Position numbers and translations under genes: made by a program. The notes below the pieces were generated by a model, which did not search any database, was not told the DNA's origin, and saw nothing but the letters and a program-made list of their open reading frames with translations. Of a stretch of DNA of 64,000 nucleotides, positions 8,215 through 61,667 are shown piece by piece. The stretch lies in assembly GCF_003711105.1 (NCBI RefSeq), contig NZ_CP023865.1:6617001-6681000 (forward strand). Direction: 5' to 3'. This stretch comes from Actinoplanes teichomyceticus ATCC 31121 (GTDB taxonomy: Bacteria; Actinomycetota; Actinomycetes; Mycobacteriales; Micromonosporaceae). Numbering within the stretch: position 1 is the first letter of the stretch; every line of letters begins with the position of its first letter.

Positions 8215-8234
8215 ATGAGTGAGTACTCGCTCAT
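8215..8234. promoter_or_regulatory. TetR-type palindromic operator
   Basis: A 20-bp palindrome, ATGAGTGAGT followed by ACTCGCTCAT, with one mismatched pair. It lies 13 nt before the GTG start of the TetR gene, in the divergent gap. Position and symmetry fit an autoregulatory site for the regulator's dimers. The start codon at its left edge is therefore probably not used. Confidence 0.7.
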
Positions 8235-8247
8235 TAAGGTGGGTCGC

Positions 8248-8865
8248 GTGGAAACCCGACGCAGACGTCAGCCGGCCCTCGCGCCGGACGAACGGCGGGC
8301 CGCGCTGATCGCGGCGACCATCCCGCTGCTCCACGAGCACGGCACCGAGGTGAGCACCAGGCAGATCGCGCAGGCCGCCGGGGTGGCCGAGGGCACCATC
8401 TTCGGCGTCTTCCAGCACAAGAGCGAGCTGGTGATCTGCTCGGTAGTCAAGGCGCTGGACCCGCGGCCGACCCTGGACGCGATCGCCGCCATCGACCCCG
8501 CGGCGGACCTGCGGACCCGGCTGACCCGGGCGGCCGAGATCGTCCACTCGCGGTTCGCCACGAACGCGGACCTCATGCACATCGCCCGGCGGCTGATCAT
8601 CGCGAACGAGCTCGACCCGCAGACCCGGGAGCGGATGACCGAGACGCGCGGTCAGCTGTTGCGGGCGGTGACCGCGCTGCTGGAGCCGGACGCCGGCAGG
8701 CTGCGCATCCCGCCCGGCGAAGCCGCCCGCCTGCTGCTGCTCTACTGCGGCGCGAACTCCTTCGGGCCGTACGGCGACACCGACGCGTTCGACGGCGCCG
8801 AGCTGGCCTCGCTGCTGCTCGACGGCATCCTTCAATCCGACTCGGGGGGACCAGCGAAGTGTTGA
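8248..8865 (+). CDS. TetR-family regulator of the adjacent ABC exporter
   Basis: The 205-residue protein has an N-terminal helix-turn-helix (RRAALIAATIPLLHEHGTEV, then STRQIAQAAGVAEGTIFGVF) and a helical ligand/dimer domain, the usual TetR layout. The GTG at 8248 is preferred over the ATG at 8215 because AAGGTGGG lies 5-6 nt upstream and the ATG falls inside a palindromic operator. Its last 7 nt overlap the first ABC gene, so regulator and exporter are co-transcribed. Autorepression relieved by an exporter substrate is the expected mode; the ligand is unknown. Confidence 0.85.
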   Translation: METRRRRQPALAPDERRAALIAATIPLLHEHGTEVSTRQIAQAAGVAEGTIFGVFQHKSELVICSVVKALDPRPTLDAIAAIDPAADLRTRLTRAAEIVHSRFATNADLMHIARRLIIANELDPQTRERMTETRGQLLRAVTALLEPDAGRLRIPPGEAARLLLLYCGANSFGPYGDTDAFDGAELASLLLDGILQSDSGGPAKC

Positions 8866-10595
8866 TCAAACTGCTTCGCGTGCATCTGCGGCCGTACCGG
8901 AAGACGATCGCCGTGGTCGTGCTCTTCCAGTTCCTGCAGACGCTCGCGACGCTCTACCTGCCCACCCTGAACGCCGACATCATCGACCACGGCGTGGTCG
9001 AGGGCGACACCGGCTACGTGCTCCGGCTCGGCGGCGGGATGCTCGGCATCACCGTGCTGCAGATCGCCGCGCAGATCGTGGCGGTCTACTTCGGCGCGCG
9101 CACCGCGATGGCGGTCGGCCGGGACCTGCGCGCCGCGATCTTCACCCGGGTGCAGACCTTCTCCGCGCGCGAGGTCGGCCAGTTCGGCGCGCCGTCGCTG
9201 ATCACCCGGACCACCAACGACGTGCAGCAGGTGCAGATGCTGGTGCTGCTCACCCTCACGCTGATGGTGTCCGCCCCGATCATGTGCGTCGGCGGCATCG
9301 TGCTGGCGCTGCGCCAGGACGTGCCGCTCTCCGCGCTGCTCCTGGTGATCATTCCGATCCTGATCGGCGTGGTCGCCGTGATCATCACCCGGATGCGGCC
9401 GCTCTTCCGCGGCCTGCAGGTCAAGCTGGACCGGGTCAACCAGGTGATGCGCGAGCAGATCACCGGCATCCGGGTGATCCGGGCGTTCGTCCGGGACGAG
9501 CGGGAGCGGGCCCGCTACGAGGTGGCCAACGACGAGCTGACCCAGATCTCGCTGAAGGCCGGCAAGATCATGGCGCTGATGTTCCCGACCGTGCTGCTGA
9601 TCGTGAACATCTCCAGCGTCGCGGTGCTCTGGTTCGGCGGGCACCGGATCGACGAGGGGGCCATGCTGGTCGGCGCGCTCACCGCCTTCCTCAGCTACCT
9701 GATGCAGATCCTCATGTCGATCATGATGGCCACCTTCATGTTCATCATGATCCCGCGAGCGGAGGTGTGCGCCGAGCGGATCCAGGAGGTGCTCACGACC
9801 GGGACCAGCGTGACGCCGCCCGCGGCGCCGGTCACCGAGGTCACCCGGCACGGCGAGCTGGAGCTGCGCGATGTCGGCTTCCGGTATCCGGGGGCCGAGG
9901 CCGCGGTGCTCGCCGACGTACGGCTGGTCGCCCGGCCGCGCGAGGTCACCGCGATCATCGGTTCCACCGGCAGCGGCAAGACCACGCTGCTCAACCTGAT
10001 CCCCCGGCTGTTCGACGCCTCCGCGGGCACCGTGCTGATCGACGGCGTGGACGTCCGCGAGCTCGATCCCGCTCTGCTGTCCCGGCTCGTCGGGATCGTC
10101 CCGCAGCGGCCGTACCTGTTCACCGGCACGATCGCGTCCAACCTGCGGTACGGCAATCCGGACGCGACCGACGAGGAGCTCTGGCAGGCGCTGGAGGTCG
10201 CCCAGGCCCGCGATTTCGTCGAACGGATGGACGGGCGGCTCCAGGCCCCGATCGCGCAGGGCGGCACCAACGTGTCCGGCGGGCAGCGGCAGCGGCTGGC
10301 CATCGCCCGCGCGCTGGTGCACCGGCCGGAGATCTACCTCTTCGACGACTCGTTCTCGGCCCTCGACTACGCCACCGACGCCGCGCTGCGGGCCGCGCTC
10401 ACCGAGCACATCGCGGACGCGACCGTGGTGATCGTGGCGCAGCGGGTCAGCACCATCCGGGACGCCGACCGGATCGTCGTGCTCGACGACGGCCGGGTGG
10501 TCGGCACCGGCACCCACGACGAGCTCATGGGCGGCAACCCGACGTACCGGGAGATCGTCCTCTCGCAGCTGACCGAGCAGGAGGCCACCGCGTGA
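8859..10595 (+). CDS. Heterodimeric ABC exporter subunit with degenerate ATP site
   Basis: A half-transporter of 578 residues: six transmembrane helices (about 1-310) and an ATPase domain. Walker A GSTGSGKTT is near 368, signature VSGGQ near 474 and Walker B IYLFDDSFSALD near 490. The catalytic Glu after Walker B is Asp, and the H-loop His is Gln (VAQRVST). Those are the marks of the degenerate-site subunit in heterodimeric exporters such as TM287/288, LmrCD and BmrCD. GTG at 8859 overlaps the TetR stop and follows GGGGGA. Its TGA overlaps the first unit of a micro-ORF array that leads to the partner gene. Substrates are probably lipophilic or drug-like; this is inference from the family. Confidence 0.88.
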   Translation: MLIKLLRVHLRPYRKTIAVVVLFQFLQTLATLYLPTLNADIIDHGVVEGDTGYVLRLGGGMLGITVLQIAAQIVAVYFGARTAMAVGRDLRAAIFTRVQTFSAREVGQFGAPSLITRTTNDVQQVQMLVLLTLTLMVSAPIMCVGGIVLALRQDVPLSALLLVIIPILIGVVAVIITRMRPLFRGLQVKLDRVNQVMREQITGIRVIRAFVRDERERARYEVANDELTQISLKAGKIMALMFPTVLLIVNISSVAVLWFGGHRIDEGAMLVGALTAFLSYLMQILMSIMMATFMFIMIPRAEVCAERIQEVLTTGTSVTPPAAPVTEVTRHGELELRDVGFRYPGAEAAVLADVRLVARPREVTAIIGSTGSGKTTLLNLIPRLFDASAGTVLIDGVDVRELDPALLSRLVGIVPQRPYLFTGTIASNLRYGNPDATDEELWQALEVAQARDFVERMDGRLQAPIAQGGTNVSGGQRQRLAIARALVHRPEIYLFDDSFSALDYATDAALRAALTEHIADATVVIVAQRVSTIRDADRIVVLDDGRVVGTGTHDELMGGNPTYREIVLSQLTEQEATA

Positions 10596-10886
10596 TCTAC
10601 CGCACCGCGGCGAAGCAAGGGCCAGGAGAGCACGCGATCGGAGGCACCGCGTGATCGACCGCACCGCAGCGAAGCAAGGGCCAGGAGAGCACGCGATCGG
10701 AGGCACCGCGTGATCGACCGCACCGCAGCGAAGCAAGGGCCAGGAGAGCACGCGATCGGAGGCACCGCGTGATCGACCGCACCGCAGCGAAGCAAGGGCC
10801 AGGAGAGCACGCGATCGGAGGCACCGCGTGATCGACCGCACCGCAGCGAAGCAAGGGCCAGGAGAGCACGCGATCGGAGGCACCGC
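10592..10886 (+). repeat. Five 59-bp tandem units, each a coupled 20-codon micro-ORF
   Basis: Five head-to-tail units of exactly 59 bp start at 10592, 10651, 10710, 10769 and 10828. Units 2-5 are identical apart from the final base junction; unit 1 differs at two positions. Each reads GTG plus 19 codons (peptide MIDRTAAKQGPGEHAIGGTA, with Tyr for Asp in unit 1) and TGA. Each TGA overlaps the next unit's GTG as GTGA, and the last overlaps the next ABC gene's ATG as ATGA. Every start has GGAGG 6-7 nt upstream. The period of 59 equals 63 coding bases minus the 4-nt overlap. Either amplified spacer DNA or a translation-coupling device is possible; expression of the peptides is not shown. Confidence 0.9.
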
Positions 10887-12851
10887 ATGACCGCGCCCAG
10901 CAGGCCGCCGGCCGCTCGGCCGATGGGCGGCCCGCCGGCCGCCCGGATGATGATGGCCGCCGGGCCGCCGGAGAAACTGCAGGACTTCAAGGGCTCCACC
11001 AAGCGCCTGCTGGGCCTGCTGAAACCGCAGCGCGCGCTGGTCGCCCTGGTGCTGCTGTTCGGGGTGGCCTCGGTCTTCCTGTCGGTGCTCGGCCCGCGCC
11101 TGCTGGGCCACGCCACCGACGTGATCTTCAACGGTGTGGTCGGCCGGATGCTGCCCGCCGGCGTCACCCGGGAAGAGGCGGTCGCGGGGCTGCGCGCGAG
11201 GGGCGACGGCAAGATCGCCGACATGCTCGCGGCGATGGACGACGTGGTGCCCGGCCGGGGCATCGACTTCGACCGGCTGCTGCACGTGCTGGCCTGGGTG
11301 GTCGTGGTCTACCTGTTCGCCTGGATGTTCGGCGTGCTGCAGGGCCGGATCACCGCGCGGGTGGTGCAGATGGCCGTCTTCGATCTGCGCAACCAGGTCG
11401 AGGCGAAGCTGTCCCGGCTGCCGCTGGCGTACTTCGACAAGCAGCCGCGCGGCGAGGTGCTCAGCCGGGCCACCAACGACACCGACAACATCGCGCAGTC
11501 CCTGCAGCAGACGTTCGCGCAGCTCGTCACCGCGCTGCTGACCGTCGTCGGGGTGCTCGGCATGATGTTCTGGATCTCCCCGTTGCTGGCGCTGATCGCG
11601 CTGGTCACCATCCCGGTGTCGTTCTGGCTGACCACCTTCGTCGGCAAGCGCGCGCAGCCGCAGTTCGTCGCCCAGTGGAAGACCACCGGTCAGCTCAACG
11701 GGCACATCGAGGAGATGTTCACCGGCCACTCGCTGATCAAGGTCTTCGGCCGGCAGCACGAGGCCGAGGAGACGTTCCGGGACCACAACGAGAAGCTGTT
11801 CGCGTCCAGCTTCCGCGCGCAGTTCATCTCCGGCCTCATCCAGCCCGTCATGATGTTCCTCAGCAACGTGAACTACGTGCTGGTCGCGGTGGTCGGTGGC
11901 CTGCGGGTGGCGTCCGGCTCGCTGTCGCTGGGCGAGGTGCAGGCGTTCATCCAGTACTCGCGGCAGTTCAGTCAGCCACTGACCCAGGTGGCCAGCATGG
12001 CGAATCTGGTGCAGTCCGGGGTGGCCTCGGCCGAACGGGTGTTCGCCGTGCTCGACGCGCCGGAGCAGACACCCGAGCCGGCGCCGGTCACGATGCCCGC
12101 GGTGCAGGGCCGGATCGCGTTCGAGAACGTGTCGTTCCGCTACCTGCCGGACCAGCCGCTGATCGAGAACCTGTCGCTGTCGGTCGAGCCGGGCCAGACC
12201 GTGGCGATCGTCGGCCCCACCGGAGCCGGCAAGACCACCCTGGTCAACCTGCTGATGCGGTTCTACGACGTGACCGGCGGGCGGATCACCCTGGACGGCG
12301 TGGACATCGCCACCATGCCCCGCGAGCAGCTGCGCGAGCAGATCGGGATGGTCCTGCAGGACACCTGGCTGTTCGGCGGCACGATCGCGGAGAACCTGGC
12401 GTACGGGGCGGACTCCGGCGACCGGGCGGCGATCGTCCGGGCGGCCGAGGCGGCGCACGTCGACGGCTTCGTCCGGACGCTGCCGGAGGGGTACGACACC
12501 CCGATCGACGAGGAGGGCTCCAGCGTCAGCGCGGGCCAGAAACAGCTGATCACGATCGCGCGGGCGTTCCTCGCCGAGCCCAGCATCCTGATCCTGGACG
12601 AGGCGACCAGCTCGGTCGACACCCGTACGGAGGTGCTCATCCAACGCGCGATGGCGTCGCTGCGCACCGGCCGGACCAGCTTCGTGATCGCGCACCGGCT
12701 GTCCACCATCCGCGACGCCGACGTGATCCTGGTGATGGCGAACGGCGCGATCGTCGAGCAGGGCACGCACGACGAGCTGATCGCGGCGGACGGGGCGTAC
12801 GCCCGGTTGTACTCGGCGCAGTTCGCCCAGGCGGTGGCCGAGGTCGACTGA
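10887..12851 (+). CDS. Heterodimeric ABC exporter subunit with canonical ATP site
   Basis: The partner half-transporter, 654 residues: a flexible Pro/Ala/Met-rich N-terminal tail of about 40 residues, six transmembrane helices (about 50-375), and an ATPase domain. Walker A GPTGAGKTT is at about 442-450, a non-standard signature VSAGQ near 547, Walker B ILILDEATSSVD with the catalytic Glu, and H-loop IAHRLST intact. The complementary pattern (degenerate Walker B and H-loop in subunit 1, altered signature in subunit 2) means one hydrolytic site and one degenerate site in the pair. The ATG overlaps the stop of the last micro-ORF. Translation is therefore likely coupled through the array. Confidence 0.9.
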   Translation: MTAPSRPPAARPMGGPPAARMMMAAGPPEKLQDFKGSTKRLLGLLKPQRALVALVLLFGVASVFLSVLGPRLLGHATDVIFNGVVGRMLPAGVTREEAVAGLRARGDGKIADMLAAMDDVVPGRGIDFDRLLHVLAWVVVVYLFAWMFGVLQGRITARVVQMAVFDLRNQVEAKLSRLPLAYFDKQPRGEVLSRATNDTDNIAQSLQQTFAQLVTALLTVVGVLGMMFWISPLLALIALVTIPVSFWLTTFVGKRAQPQFVAQWKTTGQLNGHIEEMFTGHSLIKVFGRQHEAEETFRDHNEKLFASSFRAQFISGLIQPVMMFLSNVNYVLVAVVGGLRVASGSLSLGEVQAFIQYSRQFSQPLTQVASMANLVQSGVASAERVFAVLDAPEQTPEPAPVTMPAVQGRIAFENVSFRYLPDQPLIENLSLSVEPGQTVAIVGPTGAGKTTLVNLLMRFYDVTGGRITLDGVDIATMPREQLREQIGMVLQDTWLFGGTIAENLAYGADSGDRAAIVRAAEAAHVDGFVRTLPEGYDTPIDEEGSSVSAGQKQLITIARAFLAEPSILILDEATSSVDTRTEVLIQRAMASLRTGRTSFVIAHRLSTIRDADVILVMANGAIVEQGTHDELIAADGAYARLYSAQFAQAVAEVD

Positions 12852-12920: not shown

Positions 12921-15878
12921 TCACCGGACCCGGAGCCGCACCGTGGCCGAGGTGCCGGCCAGCACGCCGCGGGCGGCGTACGCGGCGCTCACGGCCCGGA
13001 ACGACTGGGTCGAGCCGGCGCCGAGCTGGGTCACCGTGGCGGTGTAGACACCGGACGCGTTCGTGGTGCCGCTCGCGGCCCGGACCCACCTGCCGCCCAC
13101 CAGCCGCTGGATGGTCACCGCCTGCCCGGCGAACCTCGGGTTGCCGGTGACCGTCACGGTCGCCGCGCCGGTGGCCCGGGAGGTGGCGGTGATGGCCAGC
13201 GCCGGAACGACCTGGATCAGCCGGGTGCCGGAGACCCGGGCGCCGGCCCGGACCTGGAACCGGTAGCCGGTGTTGAGGGTCTGGACGAACGAGTAGTTGC
13301 CGGCGTTGTTCGGCGTCGCCGTGGCGACCCGGGTGAAGCTGCCGCCGGTGGCGGGCGCCCGCCACAGCTCCACCGTGGCGTTGTTGCCGGCCGAACCGGT
13401 GATCGTCGCGGTCCTGCCGACGGCCACGCTCGCCGGAGCGGAGGTGATGGTCGGCGCGGTCGGCGCGGGTGCCACGTCCTCGGACCGGATGGTCACGACG
13501 GCCGTGCCCTGGGTCACCGTGGCGCCGGTCGGGCCGGGCGTGCCGAGCCGCACCTCGAACGTCTCGTCACCCTCGGCCGTCCGGTCGTTGATGATCGGGA
13601 CGCTGACGTTCGCCGTCGTGGTGCCCGGTTGCAGCGACAGCGTGCCGCGGGTGGCGACGTAGTCGCTGCCGGCCGTGGCCGTGCGGTCCACCGTGTAGTA
13701 CGGGACGGTGACGGTCTGCTGCGTCGACGTGGTCTCGCCGTTGAAGGTCAGCGTCACCGGCACGCTGACCGTGCTGGCCGGCTCGTCGACCGACGCCGTC
13801 TCGGCGATGGAGGCGGACGGCGGCAGGTCGCCCGGATCGTCGTTGATCCGGAACACGCCTGTCGTGCTGCCGATACCGATCGGCGAACCGGTCGTCTCGG
13901 TCACCACGACCCCGAAGGTCTCCGTCGGCTCGTCGACGTTGTCCGGTTCCAGGTAGACCTCGGCCAGCGGCACGTTGAGGGTCGGCGCGGCGGCGCCGGC
14001 GGTGGCGGTGACCGTGGTCTGCGGCGTCGGCGACGTGCTGACGGTGAAGTCCTGGGTCGCGGTGGCCGCGTTGGCGCCGGTACCGACGTAGGTCAGGCCC
14101 AGGGTGTAGGCGGCTTCGGCCACGCCCACCACCGTGCCGTTGAGGCGCAGCGTGGTGCCCTCCGAGCCGGAGGTCTGGTTGAACGTGATCGTCGGGGCCG
14201 CGTCGTCGTTGCGCACGGTCAGCGTCGCGGTGTGCTGGCCGCCCGGCGCCACGGCGGACGCGACGTTCGAGCCGCCGACCGAGACCGTCGGGGCGACGGT
14301 CGCCGTCTCGTCCGTCTCGAACACCGTGTCCGCGTTGATCGGCACGTCCAGGTAGCCGACCGTGCTGCCCGCGGTGATCGTGACGTCGTTGCTGGCCGGG
14401 TTGTTGTAGTCGTCCTGGCCGTACGTCCCGGGCGCGTTGGTGCCGGTCTCCTCCAGGGTGACCGGCGTGAGCGGCATGCTGAACGTGACGTCGGCGTTGG
14501 TCGGCCCGCTCAGCCGGATCGGGATACGTGCCGTGGTGGTGCCGGTGCTGCCCTCGGCGATCGACACGTCCTCCACGGTCCACGCGGGCGCCACGTCGTC
14601 GCCCGCCTCGGTGATCGTGAAGGTCTGCGGGGTGAACGTGCCGATGGAGCCGTTCGGGCTGGTCAGCGCGAGGGTGAAGGTCTCACCGCCGGGTTCGTAG
14701 ACGGTGTCGCCGATGATCGTCACCGGGATCGTCGCGGTGGTCTGACCGGGCGCGATCGTGAGGCTGCTGTTCGTGGCCCGGTAGTCGACGCCCGCCGTCG
14801 CGGTGCCCCCGGTGATGGCGTAGTCGATCCGGACCGGAACCGTCTGCGCCGCGGGCAGCGTGATGGTGATCGCCGCGTTCGTCTCCCCGCTCGCCCCCTC
14901 GGCGAAGGTGTAGACGGCGGGTGTCTGGGCCGAGGCCGACACCGTCGGGATCGGCGCGCTCTGGGCGTCGGTGATCCGGCCGGTGGCGGTGGTCGGGGTG
15001 CCCAGGGTGGCGCCCAGCGGGCCGGAGATGGTGGCGGAGACCGTCTCGGTGCCTTCGAACACCGAGTCGGCCAGCGTCGTGACCAGGGCCAGGCCGTTCA
15101 GGCTGCGGGCCGGGATGTTGACCGCGCTGGCGTTGAGCGGGGTGTAGTCGCTGCCGGCGGTGGCCGGATTCGCGTTCGCGCTGGCCGGCCCGTTCGCCGT
15201 GGTCACGCTGACGGTCACCGCGGTCTCGGACCGGCCGGAGAGGGTGAGCGGGAACGCGAGCACCGAGTTCTCCGAGGCGGGGGACGCGTCGCCGATGCTC
15301 ACCGTCGGCACCGGGTCGTTGTCGGCGATGGAGACGCGCGCCGAGCGCGCGGCGGTCGACACCGGCTGGAGGGCGGTGTACGAGACCGGCACCTGGACGT
15401 CGAAGTACTGCGGGGTGGTCCCCTCGTACAGGGGATCGTCGAGAATGGTGATCTGGATGGGGGCGGTGGCGCTGGTCTCCCCTTCGGGGATGGTCACCGA
15501 ACCGGTGGCGGCCGTGTAGTCCTGGTACGCCAGCACGCCGGTGGAGATCGCCGTCCGGTCGACCGTCTCCCATGGAATCGTCACGCCGCCGGAACCGGCC
15601 GGCTCGGTGAGGGTCACCGAGACGGTCGCCGTCGCGTAGTTGTGCACCGGGCTGGAGGGGGTGCCGGTGATGACATCGGTCTCCGGGATCGGAGTGGCGG
15701 ACGTGGTGAGATAGAACTGCGGTGTGACCTGGGCGAGGGCTGGTGAGGCCACGAACGCGGGGGCGAGGCCGATGATGCCGGCTACCGCAGCCGACAGGAC
15801 CGTCCGCACCGACTTGGGGCCACGCAGCACCAGCGGCACGGAGCCGCCCGGGGCCGCATGGCGGTTGTGATCGTGCAT
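12921..15878 (-). CDS. Secreted multi-Calx-beta-domain surface protein
   Basis: The 985-residue protein has an export signal (helix TVLSAAVAGIIGLAPAFVAS, cleavage after ALA near residue 50). About six Calx-beta repeats follow, seen as recurring DYTxxxGxxxIxxG and IxxDxxxExxETF patterns. The C-terminus has Ig-like modules beginning near APTITSAPASVAVGRTATI. Calx-beta domains bind calcium and occur in extracellular adhesion proteins. ATG at 15878 is chosen because AAGGAGA lies about 10 nt upstream and the signal peptide begins shortly after; an upstream extension to 16028 would run through the riboswitch. Expression is probably controlled by c-di-GMP, fitting an adhesion or sporangium-matrix role (inference). 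No membrane anchor or sortase motif was seen. Confidence 0.85.
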   Translation of the reverse strand: MHDHNRHAAPGGSVPLVLRGPKSVRTVLSAAVAGIIGLAPAFVASPALAQVTPQFYLTTSATPIPETDVITGTPSSPVHNYATATVSVTLTEPAGSGGVTIPWETVDRTAISTGVLAYQDYTAATGSVTIPEGETSATAPIQITILDDPLYEGTTPQYFDVQVPVSYTALQPVSTAARSARVSIADNDPVPTVSIGDASPASENSVLAFPLTLSGRSETAVTVSVTTANGPASANANPATAGSDYTPLNASAVNIPARSLNGLALVTTLADSVFEGTETVSATISGPLGATLGTPTTATGRITDAQSAPIPTVSASAQTPAVYTFAEGASGETNAAITITLPAAQTVPVRIDYAITGGTATAGVDYRATNSSLTIAPGQTTATIPVTIIGDTVYEPGGETFTLALTSPNGSIGTFTPQTFTITEAGDDVAPAWTVEDVSIAEGSTGTTTARIPIRLSGPTNADVTFSMPLTPVTLEETGTNAPGTYGQDDYNNPASNDVTITAGSTVGYLDVPINADTVFETDETATVAPTVSVGGSNVASAVAPGGQHTATLTVRNDDAAPTITFNQTSGSEGTTLRLNGTVVGVAEAAYTLGLTYVGTGANAATATQDFTVSTSPTPQTTVTATAGAAAPTLNVPLAEVYLEPDNVDEPTETFGVVVTETTGSPIGIGSTTGVFRINDDPGDLPPSASIAETASVDEPASTVSVPVTLTFNGETTSTQQTVTVPYYTVDRTATAGSDYVATRGTLSLQPGTTTANVSVPIINDRTAEGDETFEVRLGTPGPTGATVTQGTAVVTIRSEDVAPAPTAPTITSAPASVAVGRTATITGSAGNNATVELWRAPATGGSFTRVATATPNNAGNYSFVQTLNTGYRFQVRAGARVSGTRLIQVVPALAITATSRATGAATVTVTGNPRFAGQAVTIQRLVGGRWVRAASGTTNASGVYTATVTQLGAGSTQSFRAVSAAYAARGVLAGTSATVRLRVR

Positions 15879-15892
15879 GTCTTTCTGTCTCC

Positions 15893-15972
15893 TTCGGCGG
15901 CTGGGCTGCCTCCATCGGGGAGGCCCCTGGCTTTGCGACCCCGCCTCGCGACGGGTTTGCCTGTTCGGGTAC
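15893..15972 (-). promoter_or_regulatory. c-di-GMP-I (GEMM) riboswitch
   Basis: Read on the minus strand the leader holds ACAGGCAAACC, a GC-rich hairpin with loop TCGCGA, then GGTCGCAAAGCC, a second hairpin GCCTCC-ccgat-GGAGGC, and GGAGGCAGCC. These are the conserved elements of the c-di-GMP-I aptamer in order: GGCAAACC, the GCAAAGCC junction, and the GGNAGGNAGC tetraloop-receptor-side motif. It ends within 15 nt of the ribosome-binding site of the Calx-beta gene, so control of translation or of a nearby terminator is plausible. ON or OFF polarity cannot be read. Confidence 0.85.
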
Positions 15973-16165
15973 AGCACCTTCAGGCGGTTGCGGAAACCGG
16001 CTGTACCGGCGATGAGCAGCTCAGCCACCGGACGGAATCCAGCGCTAGCTGCGCCTTCCGTAATCTAATCGGCGTACTGCACGCTTACCGGCGGAACGCA
16101 TTTTTCCGGCGTAAATCCCCCGCAATGCTCCGGGGTCGCTTTCGGTCCGACATAGGACCCGCGGG
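15973..16165 (-). promoter_or_regulatory. Promoter/leader region of the Calx-beta gene
   Basis: This gap has no gene. It is less GC-rich than its surroundings. It contains an inverted repeat GGTACAGC...GCTGTACC (stem arms near 15970 and 16002) immediately upstream of the riboswitch, and AT-richer stretches around 16060-16115 where the promoter is expected. No -10/-35 pair is convincing enough to mark. Confidence 0.4.
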
Positions 16166-22075: not shown

Positions 22076-23086
22076 TCAGCCGCCGCATCCGAAGCGGCGC
22101 GGGCCGTCCGGATCGCCGGCGTCCGCGGCCGGCGGCCCGGGTTGCACCGGCGACGTCGGTCCCGCGGGCGGCCGCCCCACCCTGGCCCGGGCCACCCGGT
22201 CGGCGGCGAGCCGGTAGGTGGCCGCGCGCACCAGTTCGTCCGGCACGGTGTGCCGGCCCGCACGCTCCGGCTCGGAGAGCGGGTCCGGATCGAGGCGGGC
22301 CCTCGGCACGCATGGCTCCCGTGGCGCGCGGAGCGGCGTTCCGGCGGGTGGCCCGGCACCCGCCCCGGACGATTCTCCGGTGCTCCGATCCGGGTGCCGG
22401 GACCAGCGCGGATCGGGCAGCACGGAGTAGCGCACCCCGCCCTCCGCGGCCGGGGCGGGCAGGCTGGGCACCACGTACGGCGCCGGCGCCGGGAACCCGT
22501 CCACCGGGATCGCCGCGCCACCCGCCGGAGCAGCTCCCGGGACCGGTCCCGCCGGAGCAGCTCCCGGGACCGGTCCCGCCGGAGCAGCTCCCGGGACCGG
22601 TCCCGCCGGAGCAGCTCCCGGGACCGTTCCCGCCGGAGCGGTCGCGCCCTCCGCCGCGGAACCCGGCGACCGACCGATCCCGGCACCCGCCCCCGACAGG
22701 TCCGGAGACCGACCGGTGGCGCCCTCCGCCGCGGAACCCGGCGACCGACCGATCCCGGCACCCGCCGCCGACAGGTCCGGAGACCGACCGGCCGGGACGG
22801 GCGCGGACGGGGCGTCCGCCGCGGGCGGTCCCCCCGGACGTGACCGGCGCCCGCGGTCCCCGACGACGGCCGACGCCCGCACCGCCCCGCGCCGCCGCGG
22901 CACGGCCGCCCGGACCGCGAGGCTGAACACGCTGCGGGCCGCGTGGTCGTAGCCGTGCAGGTACGCCTCCTCCCGCTCCGCCCCGCCCTGGCGTCGCTCG
23001 TGCAGCCGCCCGAGCGCGTAGCCGGCGCAGCCGACGAAGCCGGTGAGCAGGAGCAGCAGGATGGCGGAGTTGCCCGGGGCGGTCAT
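22076..23086 (-). CDS. Single-pass membrane protein with Pro/Ala/Gly repeat domain
   Basis: The 336-residue protein has one N-terminal helix (SAILLLLLTGFVGCAGYALG), then a short charged segment (HERRQGGAEREEAYLHGYDH). A low-complexity region contains two near-identical 25-residue blocks (GRSPDLSGAGAGIGRSPGSA) and four nonapeptides AGPVPGAAP. The last 90 residues are charged and less repetitive, with TVPDELVRAATYRLAADRVARARVG. No enzyme domain is seen. The helix and the C-terminus keep normal coding character, so the gene looks real although the repeats are unstable DNA. Topology with the repeat inside the cytoplasm is likely from the positive residues after the helix. Function unknown. Confidence 0.6.
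   Translation of the reverse strand: MTAPGNSAILLLLLTGFVGCAGYALGRLHERRQGGAEREEAYLHGYDHAARSVFSLAVRAAVPRRRGAVRASAVVGDRGRRSRPGGPPAADAPSAPVPAGRSPDLSAAGAGIGRSPGSAAEGATGRSPDLSGAGAGIGRSPGSAAEGATAPAGTVPGAAPAGPVPGAAPAGPVPGAAPAGPVPGAAPAGGAAIPVDGFPAPAPYVVPSLPAPAAEGGVRYSVLPDPRWSRHPDRSTGESSGAGAGPPAGTPLRAPREPCVPRARLDPDPLSEPERAGRHTVPDELVRAATYRLAADRVARARVGRPPAGPTSPVQPGPPAADAGDPDGPRRFGCGG
22524..22631. repeat. 27-bp tandem repeat, four copies, in-frame
   Basis: Four units of 27 bp (GCCGGAGCAGCTCCCGGGAC plus seven bases) start at 22524, 22551, 22578 and 22605. The last has a single substitution, and a partial fifth follows. Nine codons per unit keep the reading frame of the minus-strand protein. Confidence 0.9.
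22644..22793. repeat. 75-bp direct duplication, in-frame
   Basis: Two adjacent copies of 75 bp start at 22644 and 22719 with very few differences. They encode 25 residues each in the minus-strand Pro/Ala-rich protein. They are probably a recent duplication. Confidence 0.85.
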
Positions 23087-46510: not shown

Positions 46511-48217
46511 ATGACGAACGACGTGGCACCCGGGCGGCTCTACGGCGTCGGGCTCGGCCCCGGCGACCCCGAGCTGATCACGATCAAGGCGGCCCGGCTG
46601 ATCGAGGCGGCCGACGTGGTCGCCTATCACGCGGCCCGGCACGGGCGCAGCAACGCGCGCGCCATCGCGGCCGGTCACCTGCGCGAGGGGCAGATCGAGG
46701 AGGCCCTGATCTACCCGGTGACCACCGGGACCACCGATCATCCGGGCGGATATCAGGGCGCCATCGACGAGTTCTACGAGCAGGCCGCGGCCCGGCTCGC
46801 CGCGCACCTGGACGCCGGCCGGGACGTGGTGGTGCTGGCCGAGGGCGACCCGTTCTTCTACGGGTCCTACATGCACATGCACAAGCGACTGGCGCACCGC
46901 TACGAGACCGCCGTCGTGCCCGGTGTGACCTCGGTGAGCGCGGCCTCGGCGGTGCTCGGCCGGCCGCTGATGGAACGCGACGAGGTGCTCACCGTGCTGC
47001 CCGGCACGCTGCCGCCGGACGAGCTGGCGCGGCGGCTGGCGGCCACCGACTCGGCCGCCGTGATGAAGCTGGGCCGCACCTTCACCGGGGTGCGCACCGC
47101 GTTGCGGCAGGCCGGGCGGCTGGACGACGCGTTCTACGTGGAGCGCGCGACGATGGCGCAGGAGCGGGCCGGACGGCTGGCCGACGTGGACCCGGCGACC
47201 GTGCCGTACTTCTCGCTGGCTCTGCTGCCGAGCCCGGCGGCGGCGGCGTTCGCCGCGACCACCGACGGCGCCGCCCCCTCCGCCCCGCCCACGGCGGCGG
47301 GCGCCGGAACCACCCCGCCCACGGCGGCGGGCGCCGGAACCACCCCGCCCACGGCGGCGGGCGCCGGAACCACTGCCGTGGGCGCCGGATCCGCCGCGGC
47401 GGGCGGCGGCGCCATGCTCACGGCGGCGGGCGGCGGGGGTACTGCCGTGGGCGCCGGGGCCGCGCCGATGGGTGGCGTCACCGTGGTGGGGCTCGGGCCC
47501 GGCGCCCGGGAGTGGCTCACCCCGGAGGCGCGGGCCGCGCTCGACGAGGCCGACGACCTGGTCGGCTATCGGACGTACGTGGACCGGGTGCCGGTCAACC
47601 CGCGGCAGCGGCGGCACGCCTCGGACAACCGGGTGGAGGCCGAGCGGGCCGCGTTCGCGCTGGACCTGGCCAAACGGGGCCGCCGGGTGGTGGTGGTCTC
47701 GTCCGGCGACCCGGGCGTGTTCGCGATGGCCGCCGCCGTGCTGGAGGTCGCCGAGGATCCGCAGTGGAAGGACGTGCCGGTGCGGATCGTGCCGGGGTTG
47801 ACCGCGGCGCAGGCGGTGGCGAGCCGGGCGGGCGCGCCGCTCGGGCACGACTTCTGCATCATGTCGCTCTCCGACCGGCTCAAACCGTGGTCGATCATCG
47901 AGACCCGGCTGGCCGGCGCGGCCGCCGCCGACCTGGTGATCGCGCTCTACAACCCGGCCTCGCAGAGTCGCAAGGAGCAGCTGGTCCGGGCTCGGGAGCT
48001 GCTGCTGGAGCACCGCGCGGCGAGCACCCCGGTGGTGATCGGGCGGGACGTCGGCGGCCCGGAGGAGTCGGTGCGGATCACCACGCTCGGCGGGCTCGAC
48101 CCGGCCGCTGTCGACATGCGCTGCCTGCTGATCGTCGGCTCGTCCCAGACCAGGGTGGTGAGCAGGGCGAACGGCGACGTCGTCGCGTACACCCCGCGGC
48201 ACTACCCGGCCACCTAG
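46511..48217 (+). CDS. cobIJ: Fused precorrin-2 C20- and precorrin-3B C17-methyltransferase CobIJ
   Basis: The 568-residue protein has two tetrapyrrole methylase halves. Residues about 1-240 are CobI (YGVGLGPGDPELITIKAARL, GDPFFYGSYMHMHKRL, PGVTSVSAASAVLG), methylating precorrin-2 at C20. Residues about 318-568 are CobJ (GVTVVGLGPGAREWLTPEAR, VSSGDPGVFAMAAAVLEV, CIMSLSDRLKPW, LYNPASQSRKEQL), methylating precorrin-3B at C17. The same fusion is known in mycobacteria. The joining segment (about 255-318) is an Ala/Gly/Pro/Thr linker encoded by 30-bp tandem DNA repeats. CobG, which acts between the two steps, is in the same operon. The ATG has GGA 5-8 nt upstream. Confidence 0.93.
   Translation: MTNDVAPGRLYGVGLGPGDPELITIKAARLIEAADVVAYHAARHGRSNARAIAAGHLREGQIEEALIYPVTTGTTDHPGGYQGAIDEFYEQAAARLAAHLDAGRDVVVLAEGDPFFYGSYMHMHKRLAHRYETAVVPGVTSVSAASAVLGRPLMERDEVLTVLPGTLPPDELARRLAATDSAAVMKLGRTFTGVRTALRQAGRLDDAFYVERATMAQERAGRLADVDPATVPYFSLALLPSPAAAAFAATTDGAAPSAPPTAAGAGTTPPTAAGAGTTPPTAAGAGTTAVGAGSAAAGGGAMLTAAGGGGTAVGAGAAPMGGVTVVGLGPGAREWLTPEARAALDEADDLVGYRTYVDRVPVNPRQRRHASDNRVEAERAAFALDLAKRGRRVVVVSSGDPGVFAMAAAVLEVAEDPQWKDVPVRIVPGLTAAQAVASRAGAPLGHDFCIMSLSDRLKPWSIIETRLAGAAAADLVIALYNPASQSRKEQLVRARELLLEHRAASTPVVIGRDVGGPEESVRITTLGGLDPAAVDMRCLLIVGSSQTRVVSRANGDVVAYTPRHYPAT
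47286..47375. repeat. 30-bp tandem repeat, three copies, in the CobIJ linker
   Basis: Units beginning CCGCCCACGGCGGCGGGCGC start at 47286, 47316 and 47346, encoding TAAGAGTTPP-type decapeptides. Degenerate copies continue to about 47465. Ten codons per unit preserve the frame, so linker length can vary without breaking either enzyme. Confidence 0.9.
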
Positions 48218-59533: not shown

Positions 59534-59644
59534 GGCAACGGCCGGCGGCACCGCCTGGATCGGGTGACAACGGCCGGCGGCGCCACGTGGATCGGGTGAC
59601 AACGGCCGGCGGCGCCACCGAGACCGGGTGGCAACGGCCGGCGG
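59534..59644. repeat. 32-bp tandem repeat, three and a half copies
   Basis: Units (GACAACGGCCGGCGGCGCCA plus 12 bases) start at 59534, 59566, 59598 and 59630, with a partial last unit. They lie in non-coding DNA; 32 is not a multiple of three. Function unknown. Confidence 0.85.
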
Positions 59645-60143: not shown

Positions 60144-61667
60144 ATGGGAAGCTCGGGTCACCGTCGAACCGGCCTCGCGGCCGTCGGGTCGGGCCGCACC
60201 CGGTTGCTGGCCGCCGGAGCCGTGGTCGTCGCCGTCGGCGGCGTCGTCGGCTTCACCCAGCTGTCGCACGCCGACGAGACCCCGTCCACCAAGGCCGCCG
60301 GCGAGAGCGGGGCCGGCAAGGTGGTGAACGGGCAGAAGATCCTCACCGACACCTGCATCGACAGCAACCTGACCGCCCACGACGGCTTCCAGAAGGGCGA
60401 CCGCTGCGTCTCCACCGAGTTCGGCGAGGTCGCCTCGGCGGCGAACAACGCGGCGCTGCTGATCACCGAGGCCCCGGCGCGGGTTGCGCCGAACACGCCG
60501 TTCACGCTCAAGGTCAGCACCCGCAACCTGATCCGCGACCGGTTCCTGGCAGCCGGCCAGGGCGGTTACTACGTGGAGTCCAGCGTCCTGCAGAACGGCA
60601 TCGTGCGCGGGCACTTCCACACCGCGTGCCGGATGCTGGCGTCCACCCGGGAGGCGCCGGACCCGGCGCCGGTGCCGGCGTTCTTCGTCGCCACCGAGGA
60701 CCGCAAGGGCGGGCGGGCGCCGGACACGGTGACCATCCAGGTGCCGGGGCTGCCGGCGGAGGGCACCGCGCAGTGCGCGTCATGGGCCGGCGACGGTTCG
60801 CACCGGACGCCGATGATGGAGCGCGCCAACCAGACGCCCGCGATCGACGCCGTCCGGATCACGGTGAGCGCCGGCGGCGGCGACCAGGACGGCGGCGACC
60901 AGGACGGCGGGAACAACAACGGCGGGAACCAGGACGGCGGGAACAACAACGGCGGGAACCAGGACGGCGACACCGGCGGCGGTGATCAAGGCGGCAACCA
61001 GGGCGGCGACACCGGCGGCGGGAACCAGGGCGACAACACCGGCGGGGGGAACACCGGCGGGGACCAGGACAACGGCGGGAACCAGGACAACGGCGGGAAC
61101 AACGCGGGCGGGGGCGCCACCGCCACCGCCACGCCCCGCGCGACGGTGAAGACCACCGTCGCCCCGAACCCGACGCGGACCACCGGCACCGGCACCGGCT
61201 CGGCCGCCGGCAACGACTCCGGCGACGAGACGGCCGCGCCCACGAGGACCACCACCCGGCCGGCGGCCAAGCCGACCCGCTCCAGCACGACCACCACGTC
61301 CGACGACTCCGGCGCCTCCGGCAACGCGGACACCTCGGACACGCGCTCCTCCGGTTCCGGGTCGTCCGCCTCGGACGACACCGAGGACACCGCTGCGGCC
61401 CCCACGAAGAAGGCGAAGCCGCAGGTCACCGACAGCGAGGCGGCGCCCGCCGCGGACTACGGGGTGGACGGTGGCGAGCCCGACCAGGCCGCTCCGGCCA
61501 GCACCTCCGGGGAGCAACTCGCCGAGCCGCCCGCCGGGAAGGACACCGAGGGCGGACCGCTCACCCTGCTGAGCGAGCACCCGGCGTGGTTCGGTGGCGG
61601 CGCGGTGCTGGCGCTGCTGGCCGTGATCGGCTTCGCGTTCGCCCGCTCCCGCCCGCGACGGTACTGA
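60144..61667 (+). CDS. Secreted/cell-surface protein with conserved N-terminal domain and Gly/Asn/Gln-rich stalk
   Basis: The 507-residue protein starts with a signal helix (LLAAGAVVVAVGGVVGFTQL). A compact globular part (about 55-250) follows with paired Cys (TDTCIDSN and GDRCVSTEFGEVA; HTACRML and AQCASWAGDGSHR), suggesting disulfides. Then come a Gly/Asp/Asn/Gln repeat region (NNNGGNQDGG types, about 252-325), a Thr/Ser/Ala linker, and a C-terminal helix (GGGAVLALLAVIGFAFARSR) with basic tail that would anchor it in the membrane. No enzyme family is recognised. GGAGGGG lies 6-12 nt before the ATG. Layout suggests a surface domain held away from the membrane by a flexible stalk. Confidence 0.72.
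   Translation: MGSSGHRRTGLAAVGSGRTRLLAAGAVVVAVGGVVGFTQLSHADETPSTKAAGESGAGKVVNGQKILTDTCIDSNLTAHDGFQKGDRCVSTEFGEVASAANNAALLITEAPARVAPNTPFTLKVSTRNLIRDRFLAAGQGGYYVESSVLQNGIVRGHFHTACRMLASTREAPDPAPVPAFFVATEDRKGGRAPDTVTIQVPGLPAEGTAQCASWAGDGSHRTPMMERANQTPAIDAVRITVSAGGGDQDGGDQDGGNNNGGNQDGGNNNGGNQDGDTGGGDQGGNQGGDTGGGNQGDNTGGGNTGGDQDNGGNQDNGGNNAGGGATATATPRATVKTTVAPNPTRTTGTGTGSAAGNDSGDETAAPTRTTTRPAAKPTRSSTTTTSDDSGASGNADTSDTRSSGSGSSASDDTEDTAAAPTKKAKPQVTDSEAAPAADYGVDGGEPDQAAPASTSGEQLAEPPAGKDTEGGPLTLLSEHPAWFGGGAVLALLAVIGFAFARSRPRRY

Follow-up and report, generated by a model that had tools for sequence, protein, structure and literature searches.

We describe a five-unit tandem array between two genes for ATP-binding cassette (ABC) exporter half-transporters in Actinoplanes teichomyceticus ATCC 31121, within a 64,000-nucleotide stretch of contig NZ_CP023865.1 (positions 6,617,001 to 6,681,000, forward strand; hereafter the window). 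With a probability of roughly 0.65, the array arose when a single insertion of a short, non-autonomous repeat from a dispersed family was amplified locally to five copies; the repeat is similar to the mycobacterial interspersed repetitive units (MIRUs), and its insertion would involve pairing with the target start. Within the unit, a hexamer is the reverse complement of the start codon together with the three bases that precede the unit. Covariation among copies shows a predicted hairpin made by the unit and the host edge, in which the hexamer pairs with the three host bases and the start codon. From the comparison of sequences, we claim that this pairing is real and tied to the insertion site. 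We have moderate confidence in our account of how the flank match arose.

The five-unit array

Direct reading of the sequence placed five 59-bp units at 10592-10886, and Tandem Repeats Finder run on the window reported 10580-10890 (period 59, 5.3 copies, 98% matches). Chance is no serious explanation for five 59-bp copies. The features, in window coordinates, are as follows.

8215..8865, + strand: TetR-family regulator gene, directly upstream of the exporter pair (Pfam)
8859..10595, + strand: ABC exporter half-transporter gene 1 (PF00664 and PF00005)
10589..10594, + strand: 5' arm of the stem base at unit 1, CGC (the three bases before the overlap) plus the start codon GTG
10592..10650, + strand: unit 1, 59 bp, with its ORF (open reading frame) at 10592-10654; matched by model R2 (below)
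10631..10636, + strand: internal hexamer CACGCG of unit 1, the exact reverse complement of 10589-10594
10640..10644, + strand: Shine-Dalgarno-like GGAGG of unit 1, 6 nt ahead of the next GTG
10651..10709, + strand: unit 2, 59 bp
10710..10768, + strand: unit 3, same letters as unit 2
10769..10827, + strand: unit 4, same letters as unit 2
10828..10886, + strand: unit 5, same letters as unit 2, followed by ATGA, not GTGA
10690-10695, 10749-10754, 10808-10813 and 10867-10872, + strand: hexamer CACGCG of units 2-5
10887..12851, + strand: ABC exporter half-transporter gene 2 (PF00664 and PF00005)

The TGA of ABC gene 1 (10593-10595) falls within GTGA 10592-10595 and overlaps the GTG of unit 1, and the ATG of ABC gene 2 at 10887 sits in ATGA 10887-10890. 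Each unit is a 20-codon ORF composed of GTG, 19 further codons and TGA. All six junctions are 4-nt GTGA/ATGA overlaps, and the gap from GGAGG to the next start is 6 nt in each unit. The original prediction had described five tandem 59-bp, 20-codon ORFs between two ABC exporter genes, coupled in this geometry; the array matched that description letter for letter, and the coupling geometry was borne out as well. CGC-GTG also stands at the start of units 2-5. These four units are identical and unit 1 departs from them at 2 of 59 positions, so that, judged from the letters of the array, its growth appears to be recent.

A search of Rfam 15 returned nothing up to E 5 in window positions 10400-11000, and no match reached the Rfam gathering score in 12 unit loci. 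The unit model had no match up to E 5 in the rest of the window. Elsewhere in the window, a 1035-aa ORF on the minus strand (12921-16028) carries Calx-beta domains (PF03160, three stretches). Tandem Repeats Finder also listed repeats at 22521-22791, 47283-47409, 59536-59644 and 60875-61100, with periods of 27, 75, 30 and 32 bp plus shorter ones.

A dispersed family at gene starts

When the array was compared by BLAST with the 8.29-Mb genome that carries it, three further places emerged. One lies between the formyltransferase and RsmB genes, two units lie between a NadB-like FAD flavoprotein and QRPTase, and two lie between a DDAH-like protein and a class-III aminotransferase (all genes by Pfam). 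Model R1, a sequence-only model built on 20 units, gave 11 matches in this genome at E<=0.01, and the array accounts for five of them. Weak or partial copies at G000:C1:1987758-1987850, 6050584-6050638 and 7361750-7361778 have a decayed or missing hexamer. The array had no blastn match among plasmids and phages.

Family matches occurred in 64 of 67 genus genomes, with a maximum of 51 per genome under strict filters. Scanning the genomes of named species for an exact pattern turned up 33 loci, which were confined to Actinoplanes, Winogradskya, Jidongwangia, Pseudosporangium, Couchioplanes, Nucisporomicrobium and Amorphoplanes. Model R2, which combines sequence and structure, was applied at E<=0.001 with strict filters. 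Matches were obtained in 34 of 397 order genomes: our own, 32 of a second genus of the same family (g4, perhaps Micromonospora) and one of another family. In 325 class genomes, three matched: our own, one g4 genome already counted and one of a further family. The 40 PPE-bearing g51 genomes among the 397, mycobacterium-like by their PPE mark, had no R2 match; the g51 sets of the R2 and PPE searches are taken as the same, as the second introduced no new genome. The lone copy in another family (L417, genome G325; 4.3 Mb, 400 contigs) comes from a genome with a strong PPE match too, and is either contamination or transfer. The copy from the further family of the class (L430, G1224) is also alone; it is of the long type, with a duplicated left end and GGC-ATG paired by CATGCC.

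The original prediction had treated the units as a feature of the exporter operon and had named dispersal of the 59-mer without coupling geometry as telling against it. The unit belongs to a dispersed family, so it is no private device of that operon, and its copies keep the geometry. We collected 177 rows, of which 169 showed the DTGA expected on the left; the 3' arm could be located in 168 of them, and 167 were distinct. Copies stand at gene starts, in most cases where the stop of one gene overlaps the start of a co-directional neighbour, and 146 of the 167 have a coupled DTGA at the right end. Among first copies with sufficient flanking sequence, the upstream frame stays open for at least 60 codons to the unit in 114 of 141, and the downstream frame is open in 105 of 128. 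In a minority of copies the start codon lies a few codons past the upstream stop and not on it, and some stand at ATGG starts (L182, L406, L408, L410, L416, L419).

The main unit lengths are 59 bp (78 copies), 68 bp (41), 89 bp (9) and 56 bp (5). Between the left and the right DTGA, the spacing is 2 mod 3 in 141 of the 155 copies where it can be measured, 0 in 11 and 1 in 3; the other 12 of the 167 lack a right DTGA. This bears out the length rule of the original prediction, by which the unit preserves the overlap. With lengths mostly 2 mod 3 and no in-frame stops, a terminating ribosome can move on from one ORF to the next. Units of 57 bp (0 mod 3) are common in the second genus, and genome G544 has nine 57-bp matches at even spacing. 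In all 15 loci that we hand-picked from 29 for the 57-bp type, the frame continues from the unit's start for 133 to 539 codons. These units add a repeated 19-residue N-terminal extension to the downstream gene (L397, L399, L402, L404 and others). Both solutions keep the downstream gene translatable. Start codons annotated near units may be misplaced, and at the 57-bp units of the second genus their annotation may be unreliable. A functional peptide was considered and rejected: codon-position entropies of 0.57, 0.65 and 0.65 in 69 units show no third-position excess and no clear coding constraint.

Orthologous junctions were compared for presence and absence of the unit. The ABC junction was located in 67 of 67 genus genomes. 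By script, 26 carry an insert and 41 have a plain overlap in which the start frame stays open. Inspected by eye, the 26 inserts comprise 15 of the unit family (14 by pattern and L369 by eye), 8 of another repeat type and 3 other short inserts. The five units of our genome are matched by no more than two in any other genus genome. The copy number proposed by the original prediction as a switch does vary (1, 2 or 5 at this junction), between species. Its view that the array grew in tandem from a spacer with one coupled micro-ORF agrees with the single-unit junctions in G205, G158, G194 and G215. At the formyltransferase-RsmB junction, 7 of 67 genomes carry the unit family, and 18 carry some insert that closes the first frame. 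An 18-genome tree joins G205 and G212 as sisters (support 100); the two junctions are filled in G205 and empty in G212. G167, filled at formyltransferase-RsmB, groups with G172 and G215, empty there (support 100).

Other short inserts were seen at the same two junctions. The second repeat type at the ABC junction (L109, L114, L119, L121, L367, L376, L378, L379) has a GAGCGAAGCGAG-like core and also forms a short ORF coupled to the next gene. At the formyltransferase-RsmB junction, L303, L311, L324 and L326 hold coupled micro-ORFs that appear by eye to be tandem copies of the upstream gene's 3' end plus Shine-Dalgarno sequence. Duplication of the upstream gene's own end looks like a separate route to the coupled micro-ORF layout. 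Locus L284 has a run of N shortly after the RsmB gene start; the sequence preceding this run looks like the end of a sequencing adaptor.

The match between hexamer and host flank

Among first copies, the hexamer matches at six of six positions in 88 of 144. The pairs vary from copy to copy: besides the common GGC-GTG, we found CCA-GTG/CACTGG, GCC-ATG/CATGGC, GTC-ATG/CATGAC, GTC-GTG/CACGAC and CGC-ATG/CATGCG. Covariation was tested by counting Watson-Crick pairs in the 167 distinct copies against 2000 shuffles. At positions -3, -2 and 0 (0 being the first base of the start codon), the counts were 129, 150 and 150 against shuffled means of 100, 100 and 83, and 0 of 2000 shuffles reached each. 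At -1, the count was 156 against a mean of 149, reached by 1 of 2000, and the counts at +4, +5, +8 and +9 were reached by none. Position +3 is an A.G mismatch in 162 of 167 copies, and +6/+7 are mostly G.A/A.G. The pairing stops at -3; at -4 only 19 pairs were found, below every shuffle (mean 43.5). The letters that anchored the 3' arm exclude the partners of the flank, 0 and +4 and include those of +1 and +2, which were not counted.

The RNAalifold consensus of 33 diverse copies gave the same stem minus the outermost pair. The named structure had 95.6% paired cells, and all five measures lay above 500 shuffles and every slid register. A second set comprised 43 distinct units, 42 of them from genus g4 and one from another family. 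Six-of-six matches occurred in 32, and the flank matched at 121 of 129 positions, which 0 of 5000 shuffles reached.

These results are consistent with the MIRU-like reading. Copies would arise through insertion, and pairing between hexamer and target would select the insertion site, or be imposed on it, at the DNA level. The coupled micro-ORF would render the insertion harmless, so that it would be tolerated and not selected for dosage. The five copies may then have grown by slippage or unequal exchange; slippage is the likely cause of copy number in the array. The copies themselves were split into 144 first and 23 inner ones, numbers that a text rule and a hand list each gave with non-identical sets. 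All three flank bases matched in 3 of 23 inner tandem copies of this first set against 106 of 144 first copies. In the 35 cases where the left and right start codons differ, the hexamer agrees with the left in 27 and with the right in 4. The flank is GGC, GTC or CGC in 120 of 144 copies; at coupled junctions without a unit, the same holds for 9 of 32 (P 2.6e-9).

Several observations weigh against this reading. The flank background consists of just 32 junctions under a strict filter, the tested structure was derived from the same sequences, and the shuffles ignore relatedness, so that related copies, some of them orthologues, inflate the tests. When folded, the array's own hairpins beat shuffles by no more than a modest margin (z -1.1 to -1.8). 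Inner copies of the second set matched at three of three flank bases in 11 of 14, near the 25 of 29 of first copies, and all five units of the ABC array match their flank; the argument from inner copies is therefore limited to the first set. At two junctions, host base -3 is G in filled genomes and C in empty sisters, and the match may therefore be made during or after insertion. Orthologous junctions also show matched two-sided differences (L035 and L032; L065 and L031; L419 and L391), which can be read as compensation in place. At position +9, left out of the ten-position mismatch count given below, G-T mismatches number 35 and A-C mismatches 7. The transposase family PF01797 (Y1 transposase) has no match in our own genome and is present in 21 of 67 genus genomes; a search for Y1/PF01797 found no mobilising enzyme, and transposition was not observed. 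As the present mobiliser, the Y1 transposase was rejected: it does not co-occur with the unit, and near four Y1 genes no significant unit was found (best E 1.6). Unit matches number 19 in G188 and 23 in G228, two genomes without a Y1 match.

A bolder form of the MIRU-like reading is put forward tentatively. The unit might be a self-addressed mobile micro-element of about 59 bp, whose six-letter address pairs with a gene end and the next start, chooses operon junctions and writes a coupled ORF. If so, the family would be retargetable by a six-base change, since copies bear different addresses.

The main rival, which we consider unlikely, is an RNA hairpin kept by selection. The stem would hide the start and the upstream stop until the upstream ribosome melts it, enforcing coupling, and the flank match would be maintained by compensatory changes. 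The strong covariation, start codon included, fits this proposal, as do two-sided differences between orthologous junctions, such as GTC-GAC against ATC-GAT before a second-genus gene read by eye as ilvN, and GGC-GCC against CCA-TGG. The matched inner copies of the second set speak for it too, and so does the G-T excess at +9, because an RNA stem would favour it. At the other ten paired positions, however, G-T mismatches are no commoner than A-C (24 vs 28). The inner copies of the first set were not re-matched, mismatched orthologues persist (L039, L067), and the 41 insert-free ABC junctions also argue against it.

Less likely again is correction of the DNA templated by the hairpin, in which template switching during replication perfects a partial palindrome of flank and hexamer and the match is a mutational by-product. 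The shift of host base -3 toward the match in filled genomes compared with their empty sisters points this way, and so does the lack of strand preference among mismatches at ten of eleven positions. Such correction leaves the dispersal and the restriction to start codons unexplained, and neither the first-set inner tandem copies nor the flank of G174 (L286), which is retained unmatched, have been corrected.

The original prediction had suggested that the array sets the ratio of the two exporter subunits or acts as a copy-number switch, which we judge improbable. The geometry would permit repeated termination-reinitiation, and fpg1 mRNA level in M. tuberculosis is reported to correlate with the length of an upstream MIRU-VNTR (variable number tandem repeat) (PMC2734929). 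Against this, the unit also stands between unrelated gene pairs, and plain overlap prevails at the ABC junction (the 41 genomes above). Judged from the sequences, a role of the array in subunit ratio or dosage appears unsupported. An effect of the units on ABC gene 2 output is possible, because each unit would add a reinitiation step.

Slippage of a gene-end spacer alone, unconnected with any dispersed family, resembles what is seen by eye at L303, L311, L324 and L326, and as the origin of the unit it is contradicted by homology to copies at many unrelated junctions, so that hardly any weight is left to it.

Comparison with known systems

The MIRU-like reading places the family among repeats whose layout is known. 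We know of no explanation for how MIRU-like repeats find start codons and spread through operons without harm. MIRUs are reportedly the subject of a 1997 paper by Supply and colleagues. MIRUs are reported to insert at start codons and to carry an ORF with -4 nt coupling (PMC12548453), and they form tandem arrays of 77- and 53-bp units (PMC2453075). The unit family shares this layout (PMC12548453, PMC2453075, PMC4213456), and the kind is therefore already known. Like MIRUs, its members are short, about 40-100 bp, and scattered over intergenic sites within operons; in both, a small ORF overlaps its neighbours by 4 nt, and the MIRU lengths of 77 and 53 bp are both 2 mod 3. Tandem copy number varies in the unit family as well, between species. 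The difference lies in the sequence: no kinship was found, judged by the 40 mycobacterium-like g51 genomes. The original prediction knew of no described system with this layout, and MIRUs are a published precedent for it. The family and its flank rule are not named in the open-licence PubMed Central literature searched (titles and abstract openings), and the host-flank match was not found there.

REP/BIME, ERIC and other intergenic repeats similar to miniature inverted-repeat transposable elements (MITEs) are small, dispersed and without genes of their own. To our knowledge, no insertion at stop-start overlaps in coupled frames has been described for these or for RU. RU is likewise a small dispersed repeat without its own genes (PMC2759123).

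The proposed target choice by base pairing has a counterpart in IS608 of the IS200/IS605 insertion sequences, where element and target pair (PMC5934647). The native guide of IS608 is situated 5' of the hairpin, its partner is a tetranucleotide, and the enzyme at work is a Y1 transposase (PMC5934647). In an engineered version, 8 nt on the 3' side of the left hairpin pair with bases upstream of the target, a layout similar to the present one (PMC5934647). In the unit family, by contrast, the hexamer, read on the coding strand, comes 3' of the inner hairpin; our own genome lacks a Y1 transposase match. We therefore file the family as MIRU-like, neither MIRU nor IS200/IS605. It shows two frame arrangements that let an insertion be harmless: at 2 mod 3 the unit is a coupled micro-ORF, and at 0 mod 3 it extends the downstream protein in frame at the N-terminus. 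The covarying match between hexamer and host in two genera, with empty sites and sister genomes to compare, makes it a testable lead.

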